Shown here piece by piece: positions 12,568-19,832 of a stretch of 34,135 nucleotides of DNA (position 1 is its first letter; every line of letters begins with the position of its first letter). This stretch comes from Phycisphaera mikurensis (GTDB lineage Bacteria; Planctomycetota; Phycisphaerae; UBA1845). Made by a program: the position numbers and the translations under genes. The notes under the pieces were generated by a model. That model did no database searches. It saw only the letters and a list, made by a program, of their open reading frames with translations, and was not told where the DNA came from. The stretch is taken from positions 1 to 34,135 of the forward strand of contig SBAX01000230.1 in NCBI GenBank assembly GCA_005240095.1. The letters are read 5' to 3'.

Positions 12568-12587
12568 CCCCGCGTTGAAACGCGGGG
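12568..12587. repeat. Palindromic hairpin ccccgcgttgaaacgcgggg
   Basis: 8-bp perfect stem (ccccgcgt/acgcgggg), intergenic, resembling family C in design. Confidence 0.65.
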
Positions 12588-12708
12588 CTACTCTCGAACG
12601 TACCTCCGGCACGACTGCACGGCGCATGTTTCGACCGATCGGCAACAGGTCGCGCACCCACTACGCCGACGCTACAGTCGCCGATCGGGCTGCGGACAAG
12701 GCGCGACC

Positions 12709-14249: not shown

Positions 14250-14355
14250 ACGGCGACGAAGCGACGAAGCCACGGAGCGACGAAGCGACGGCGGGACATA
14301 GGGACGAAGTAGGGGCGCCCGCAATCGACAATCGCAAATCGACAATCGACAATTG
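14250..14355. repeat. Degenerate tandem short repeats (gacgaag-type and aatcgacaatcg-type)
   Basis: cgacgaagcgacgaagccacggagcgacgaagcgacggcgggac...; aatcgacaatcgcaaatcgacaatcgacaatt. Confidence 0.65.
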
Positions 14356-14419: not shown

Positions 14420-14493
14420 GTCCCCGTGGCACAATTGGATAGCGCGTCGGCCTCCGGAGCCGAAGGTTGCAGGTTCGAATCCTGCCGGGGACG
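14420..14493 (+). tRNA. tRNA-Arg (anticodon CCG)
   Basis: Complete cloverleaf: acceptor GTCCCCG/CGGGGAC, anticodon stem TCGGC-CTCCGGA-GCCGA, T arm GCAGG-TTCGAAT-CCTGC; no encoded CCA. Confidence 0.95.
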
Positions 14494-14572
14494 CGTTCTG
14501 GGAAAAAGTCAAGACCGCAACCTCACTCCTGGCGTTGCCTTTTTGCCTGAACCGCCAAGCCCCAGGCACGCC

Positions 14573-14866
14573 CTATTCATTGAACAGTTGCGGGATGTCT
14601 CGCGCCCCGTGAAGCACGCGAATAAACTCGATGCCATCGTTGATTGGCCGGTAGAAGATCAGGTAGTTGCCCACCGGAAAGCTCCGCAAGCCCGGCGCCA
14701 GTTCCTCACAGAGCCGGCCAATCCCCGGGGCCACAGCAAGCAGAGCCAATGTGTCGTCGAACCGATCGAGGAGACGGTCGGCCGCTACGAGGTTGTCGGC
14801 AGCGATGTGGTCCCAGATCTCCGCGTAGTCCTGCCGCGACTGGGCCGTTCGCAGGATGCGGGCCAT
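14573..14866 (-). CDS. RelE/ParE-family toxin
   Basis: MARILRTAQSRQDYAEIWDHIAADNLVAADRLLDRFDDTLALLAVAPGIGRLCEELAPGLRSFPVGNYLIFYRPINDGIEFIRVLHGARDIPQLF; TGATG coupling to the antitoxin. Confidence 0.93.
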   Translation of the reverse strand: MARILRTAQSRQDYAEIWDHIAADNLVAADRLLDRFDDTLALLAVAPGIGRLCEELAPGLRSFPVGNYLIFYRPINDGIEFIRVLHGARDIPQLFNE

Positions 14867-15141
14867 CAGGAGGACCGTTTGCTGCTGAGGCGCCTTCGGC
14901 CTTCAGCCTTGATGACCTGGGCGTCGAACTCCGCGAACTCACCGCGGTCGGCCTGCTGCAGCCCCACGGCGACTTGTCGGCGCAGCTCGGCCAACTCATG
15001 AGGGTCGGTAGGCAGATGCGCCTGGTGGTCTCGAAGAAGGAGCAGGGCGTCGTTAATCATCTCGTTGGCATCGGTAAACTGGCCGGCTCGGACTTTCTCC
15101 GCGACGAACTTCTCCAATTCCGGTGCGAGGCGGATTTCCAT
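14866..15141 (-). CDS. ParD-like (CC2985 family) antitoxin
   Basis: MEIRLAPELEKFVAEKVRAGQFTDANEMINDALLLLRDHQ; GAGGA 10 nt before this ATG favours 15141 over 15171 as the start. Confidence 0.88.
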   Translation of the reverse strand: MEIRLAPELEKFVAEKVRAGQFTDANEMINDALLLLRDHQAHLPTDPHELAELRRQVAVGLQQADRGEFAEFDAQVIKAEGRRRLSSKRSS

Positions 15142-15213
15142 CTTGGATTGTTCCTCAGGGGACGACCTCATGCGCGAAGTCTAGCGAATGCAGCGGCTTG
15201 GTGTCAAGCGTAG

Positions 15214-15259
15214 GGCCTCCGGAGCCGAAGGTTGCAGGTTCAAATCCTGCCGGGGACGC
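15214..15259 (+). repeat. Partial duplicate of tRNA-Arg(CCG) 3' part (att-like direct repeat)
   Basis: ggcctccggagccgaaggttgcaggttcaaatcctgccggggacgc matches 14449-14494 at 45/46 positions; no D-arm or 5' acceptor. Confidence 0.93.
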
Positions 15260-15347
15260 TTCACGGAAACGCCGAAACGTCAAAAAGTCAAAAAGTCAAA
15301 ACGCCGAATTGATAAGGCCACCTTTCTTCATCGACGCTACACCCAAG

Positions 15348-18305: not shown

Positions 18306-19832
18306 TCATGTCGCATCCTGATCGCTCTTCGCGCCCTCGCGAGTGATCTTGTATTTCTTGAGCCGGTAACGCAGGTTGTCGCGGCTGATGCCTAAGACCC
18401 GGGCGGCCTCGGACTGGTTCCAGTAGGTGTCTTCCAGGGCCTTGATGATCATGGCTCGCTCCTGTCCGCGGAGAGTGGGAGATATCTCGACCTCAGGCGC
18501 CCCACCGGAACCTTTCTTAAGCTCCGCAGGCAAGTGCGACGGCAGGACCTCCAACCCGTCGCAGAGCAGTACCGCCCGCTCGATGACGTTGGCGAGTTCG
18601 CGGATGTTGCCCGGCCAGTCGTAGCCGGAAAGCACCTCCAGCGCCTCGCCGGACACCGCCCTCGGCGGCACGCCCAGCTCTGCGCTGGCCAGTCTGGTGA
18701 AATGCACGGCCAGCGCCGGGATGTCCGCCCGCCGTTCTCGCAGCGAAGGCAGCTCAATCGGAAATACGTTGAGGCGGTAGAACAGATCGTCGCGGAATCG
18801 TCCCGCGGCAATGGCCGCCTTCAAGTCTCGATTCGTCGCCGCGATCACCCGCACATCGCAAGCAATGGTCTGTGTGCCGCCCACGCGGGTGAAGGCCCGC
18901 TCCTGAAGCAAGCGCAGCAGCTTCACCTGCGTCGAGGCGCTGATGTCGCCGATCTCGTCGAGGAACAGCGTTCCGTTGTCGGCCAACTCGAACCTTCCGA
19001 TGTGCTGGGCGAAGGCGCCGGTGAAGGCGCCCTTCTCGTGCCCGAACAGTTCGCTTTCCAGCAGGGTCTCGGGCAAAGCGGCGCAGTTCACGGCCACGAA
19101 TGCTTTTTTCGCCCGCGGCGAGGCGTTATGGATGTACTTGGCGAGGACCTCCTTACCGGTGCCCGTCTCGCCGACGAGCAGGACCGTCGCGTTGGTCGGC
19201 GCCACGCGATCGGCGAGGCGCAGCATCGCCTTCACCGCGGGCGAGGACCCGATGATGTCCGACCGGGCGAGGACAGATTCCCGCAGGACGCGGTTCTCGC
19301 GCTGGAGGCTGGCGTGGGCCTGGGCGTTGCGGGCCCCGAATGCAGCGAGGTTGGCGAACACCTCCAGAAGGGCCAGGTCGGCGGACCCAAACGTGCCACC
19401 TCCGCGGCGATTGAGCACCTCGACCACGCCGATGACCTCCGATTTGTAGACCATCGGGGCAGCCATCAGACCCACGGTGTGAAAGCGAAGCTGTTCGTCG
19501 ATCCCGCGGAAGAAATCCGGGTTCTGGGAGACATCCCCGATGTTTTCCGCCTTGCCGGTTCGGATGACGTGCCCGGCGATCCCCAGTTCGGCGTCGAACT
19601 CCCTCCCCACGAGGGCCGGGCTTTGCTCACCGAAGGCGGCCGCGAAGGTCAGCGTGTTCCGCCGCCGGTCCAGCAGGAGGACGCTGCTAGCCTCGGCCTG
19701 CATGACCGATGCCGCAGTACGGGCGATTTGGGCCAACACCTCGTCCAGATCGAGGGTGGAATTGATGGCCGCGGAGGCCTCCGTCAGGGCTGCCAGCGTC
19801 TTGGGCGGGAAGGTGCTGACCGCTAAATCCAT
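18306..19832 (-). CDS. GAF domain-containing sigma-54-dependent Fis family transcriptional regulator
   Basis: [63 protein letters not shown]-terminal Fis-type [28 protein letters not shown]. Confidence 0.95.

Follow-up and report, generated by a model that had tools for sequence, protein, structure and literature searches.

Additive genomic islands, whose cassettes terminate in a repeated portion of a tRNA gene, have been described in Ca. Actinomarinales (PMC7771536) and Ca. Methylopumilus (PMC10872708), spanning 330 bp to 42 kb in the latter (PMC10872708). Cis-mobilizable elements (CIMEs) are flanked by attachment (att) sites and have no recombination genes (PMC7563491, PMC5704250). For islands in tRNA genes (tDNA), crossover takes place at a subsite in the anticodon or the T-stem, anticodon-centred sites being among those known, and the Islander approach demands an integrase and a length of at least 2 kb (PMC4383910). 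Here, a 765-bp islet from Phycisphaera mikurensis is described, in which a ParD/ParE toxin-antitoxin operon lies between an intact tRNA-Arg(CCG) gene and a displaced copy of its 3' part. The islet is located in the window, which is the whole stretch of 34,135 nucleotides that was analyzed (SBAX01000230.1, contig C109 of the 488 contigs in the 4.67-Mb assembly GCA_005240095.1, here G000), and it very probably originated by a site-specific insertion of some kind.

The tRNA-Arg(CCG) islet and its toxin-antitoxin operon

The upstream tRNA gene was called by both ARAGORN and Rfam, and BLAST of this tRNA against the window returned tRNA positions 30 to 75 a second time (97.8% identity over 46 nt, E ~3e-14), in the same orientation, with the 3' fragment downstream and the 5' half missing (Table 1). 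The edges of both copies are sharp, the similarity ending abruptly on each side with flanks that do not match. All three elements of the preliminary description of this locus, namely, two copies matching at 45 of 46 positions and offset by 765 bp, an intact tRNA upstream, and a downstream copy without the 5' half, were reproduced.

Table 1. Features of the tRNA-Arg(CCG) islet, in positions of the window
Feature	Position	Strand	Evidence
tRNA-Arg(CCG), intact, integration target	14420..14494	+	ARAGORN and Rfam RF00005, 64.3 bits
att core within tRNA-Arg(CCG), anticodon arm to 3' end	14449..14494	+	45/46 identical to 15214-15259
parE toxin gene, 97 aa	14573..14866	-	PF05016, 74.8 bits (cut-off 23), E 8e-21
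parD gene of a ParD-like antitoxin, listed at 101 aa	14866..15171	-	TIGR02606, 43.7 bits (cut-off 46.2)
Sigma70-like promoter (predicted) before parD, TTGACA-18-TAGACT	15178..15207	-	10/12 consensus positions
Distal att site, displaced 3' copy of tRNA-Arg(CCG)	15214..15259	+	BLAST; also weak tRNA match

No integrase was found between the two copies, and the ParD/ParE operon was the only content, as had been described, with ParE identified by its Pfam family and ParD scoring below the TIGR02606 cut-off. The two genes overlap by 1 nt and are read towards the tRNA gene. Because the TIGR02606 match begins at residue 11 of ParD, the true start is probably the ATG at 15141, which would give a protein of 91 aa. 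The promoter-like site is placed 7 bases inward of the distal tRNA copy, just within the islet; 0.1 such sites were expected from shuffled sequences, and its promoter function is predicted. By these positions the operon occupies nearly the whole islet. Relatives of ParE with up to 57% identity were found on cyanobacterial plasmids.

Two further ParDE copies in the genome, on contigs C244 and C84, were considered as similar islets and rejected; ARAGORN called no tRNA in the portions that were read, and the fetched sequence lacked a T-arm motif. In a relative (G017:C687, L105 1204-1900), a ParDE pair is present directly 3' of tRNA-Lys(TTT), and no copy of part of this tRNA was found beside it in the short locus L105. 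Short dispersed repeats at 14253-14354 and 15264-15308 of the window flank the tRNA gene and the distal copy, and repeats of this type occur in dozens of places in the genome and in that of its congener. An Acido-Lenti-1 RNA (RF01687) was located at 12568-12613, and similar sequence is present many times in the genome.

tRNA copies and integrases in the genome and its family

The tRNA genes found in G000 were compared with all stretches fetched. Identical 3' copies of tRNA-Ala(GGC), tRNA-Phe(GAA), tRNA-Gly(CCC), and tRNA-Gln(CTG), 44 to 46 nt long, were detected on other contigs, starting at tRNA positions 28 to 31, like the copy in the window. The mirror case was seen for tRNA-Gly(TCC), which has a displaced 5' half comprising positions 1 to 37 and ending in the anticodon loop (G000:C37:8279-8315, L180), while the intact gene (G000:C260:3120-3191, L196) has an upstream flank that differs from that of the C37 half; this pair is the rarer 5' type of integration. 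The starts of the 3' copies together with the end of the tRNA-Gly(TCC) half place the exchange in the anticodon arm.

Integrase domains were located 186 to 724 bp past the 3' ends of six tRNAs, an additional integrase-like open reading frame (ORF) lies about 20 bp past tRNA-Ala, and another integrase adjoins the tRNA-Gln copy. In total, seven tRNA genes and one 3' copy have an integrase ORF about 20 to 730 bp away, a rich set of tRNA-targeted elements for a single genome. The contigs concerned are C362 (L183), C487 (L185), C123 (L189), C12 (L190), C22 (L192), C375 (L199), C185 (L174), and C262 (L167). The integrase ORF of C487 extends into the antisense strand of tRNA-Phe. Two integrase genes that share their profile score and a 150-residue C-terminal sequence were observed in inverted orientation, about 5 kb apart, on another contig (G000:C428:13220-13714(-) and 18589-19083(+)).

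The family was sampled with 35 genomes in which tRNA-Arg(CCG) is intact and its surroundings were fetched, the window included. Downstream 3' copies of the tRNA were present at five of these loci, comprising the window, with its single module, and genomes G041 (one module of 11431 bp), G031 (one of 1769 bp), G025 (two in tandem, 778 and 662 bp), and G010 (three in tandem, 2394, 6951, and 2326 bp). The module arrays show the same edge in the tRNA as the window copy. About 30 loci had a single tRNA-Arg(CCG) with no clear downstream copy in the available sequence, some with weak partial matches. The cargo varies, including glyoxalases, a CBS-domain membrane protein, a hydrolase, protein kinases, and a trypsin-like protein, and no integrase was detected in the modules at this tRNA by Pfam or by phmmer with the G000 integrases as queries. 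The search for other cargo at this tRNA, which the preliminary description had proposed, returned differing integrase-less modules in four genomes, and the site is a hot spot for such modules.

The glyoxalase of the second G025 module shares 87% protein identity with that of the G031 module, from another genus, compared to 57% for the HD-GYP response regulators encoded just upstream of the two tRNAs. This difference suggests that the glyoxalase cargo may have moved horizontally, and a slowly evolving protein could account for it as well. Kinase cargo was dropped as proof of transfer among G010, G022, and G017, only the kinase domain being close and the full protein less conserved than a core gene. 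In G047, a 140-bp sequence consisting of the tRNA 3' part and adjoining downstream sequence (L069 6105-6244) has a second copy in opposite orientation (L070), 98% identical and some 0.8 Mb distant; the upstream end of this far copy resembles the end of the 11.4-kb island of G041.

Origin of the islet

The geometry gives good support to a site-specific insertion carried out by a tyrosine integrase. The attL/attR arrangement read from the window in the preliminary description is now backed by independent tRNA cases in the same genome and by the modules without integrase that relatives carry at tRNA-Arg(CCG). In the proposed course of events, tRNA-Arg(CCG) would have been the integration site and its anticodon arm the place of exchange. 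A copy of tRNA positions ~30 to 75 brought in by the arriving DNA would have restored the tRNA, while the old 3' part was pushed 765 bp downstream. This DNA most likely arrived as an integrase-less circle resembling a gene cassette, or as a composite, and a tyrosine integrase supplied in trans would have carried out the insertion, the same route being proposed for the family's other small modules at tRNA-Arg(CCG). Toxin-antitoxin systems are known to hold the DNA that carries them, and the ParD/ParE pair, as the sole cargo and with its own putative promoter, probably selects against loss by excision.

Arrival of the islet without its own integrase and movement in trans is given about an even chance and is slightly favored over a deletion remnant, both possibilities having been named in the preliminary description. 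The reasons for this preference are that up to three modules occur at this tRNA in each of several genera, some of operon size and with no integrase leftovers, and that the islet itself has been pared down to its operon. Several points weigh against this preference. Deletion could likewise yield small integrase-less modules. No relative was found with both flanks of the window and an empty site, the tRNA followed directly by the sequence after 15259, for which the preliminary description had suggested searching: the window tRNA adjoins comM/yifB upstream, in the sole congener it adjoins the HD-GYP gene instead and comM/yifB has no adjoining tRNA, and no homologs of the right-flank gene were present beside tRNA-Arg(CCG) in relatives. 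The integrase matching the window att, likewise sought, was not found either, no integrase-bearing element with this att being returned by pattern scans of 51 family genomes (three mismatches), 114 order genomes (two mismatches), and a genome collection and viral contigs (exact match), a weak negative since the patterns are narrow and metagenome-assembled genomes lose mobile DNA. The sole integrase ORF close to a matching tRNA, at L238, was set aside as resembling the housekeeping XerD, as judged by eye.

Under the deletion reading, the islet would be a strict CIME, left by a larger integrative element that entered at this tRNA with its own integrase and then lost everything except the att sites and ParDE; the probability of this is put somewhat below even. 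CIMEs have been described as decayed elements that keep attL and attR (PMC7563491, PMC5704250), autonomous-looking elements with integrases beside tRNAs are common in G000, and ParDE would persist through such decay, the loss of the antitoxin being costly. The copies in the window differ at one position while the other four tRNA 3' copies are identical, so that the insertion may be older. However, no trace of an integrase or other element genes remains, the islet ends at most 7 bp from the operon promoter, and accretion and deletion would have had to recur to give the small modules, one to three per locus, of several genera.

A rearrangement or recombination between dispersed tRNA copies could have placed an unrelated ParDE operon next to the tRNA with no integrase event, as the surroundings of the window tRNA, with comM/yifB upstream, differ from those in the genome of the same genus, and in G047 a tRNA copy lies remote from its tRNA and on the other strand; such an origin leaves unexplained why copies of five tRNAs, and those in several genomes, extend from the tRNA end to the anticodon, and it is considered very improbable. 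A tandem tRNA duplication with decay of the second copy has its sole support in the two copies being direct repeats and is hardly credible, given the missing 5' half and the sharp edge at the anticodon arm, the same-edge copies of other G000 tRNAs at remote places, some beside integrases, and the relatives, which show either one tRNA or arrays of modules that share this edge and among which the decayed tandem tRNA that would have spoken for duplication was not seen.

In a further reading, members of the family might keep a cassette system at tRNA-Arg(CCG), with an integrase from elsewhere in the genome collecting and reordering modules of a single gene or operon that have tRNA-derived att sites, similar to an integron with a half-tRNA as att; this proposal is regarded as unlikely.

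Comparison with described systems

Consisting of two att sites and a toxin-antitoxin operon predicted to be self-expressed, the islet comes near the minimum that a useful tRNA-targeted insertion can have, and it represents a very small example of an already known kind of mobile gene cassette. With integrase-less modules at one tRNA across the family, movement of such cassettes in trans can be weighed against their being only leftovers.

As in type II ParDE systems, a ParE-family toxin and a ParD-like antitoxin are encoded in an operon with a 1-nt overlap; the genomic setting differs, and the toxin-antitoxin activity is predicted from sequence. Like the tDNA islands of Islander, the islet has an intact tDNA, a displaced 3' fragment in the same orientation, and an anticodon-centred site (PMC4383910), but with no integrase and a length below 2 kb it would be rejected by the Islander filters, which is one reason why such islets are overlooked.

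In common with additive flexible genomic islands, tRNA-Arg(CCG) holds different cassettes or none in the relatives. In contrast to those islands, the islet occurs in another phylum and at another tRNA, has a toxin-antitoxin operon as its one cassette, and belongs to a genome with abundant integrases at other tRNAs. It shares with CIMEs the retention of attL and attR without recombination or transfer genes and the tandem accretion at the 3' end of the target gene. CIMEs derive from an ICE or IME by deletion and move in cis after accretion of such an element; for the islet both would be putative, and no related full element was found at this tRNA. Its 765 bp are below the 1.2 to 13 kb of classical CIMEs and above the gene-free microCIMEs (PMC7563491). 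By analogy, its behavior would fit both additive tRNA cassettes and CIMEs.
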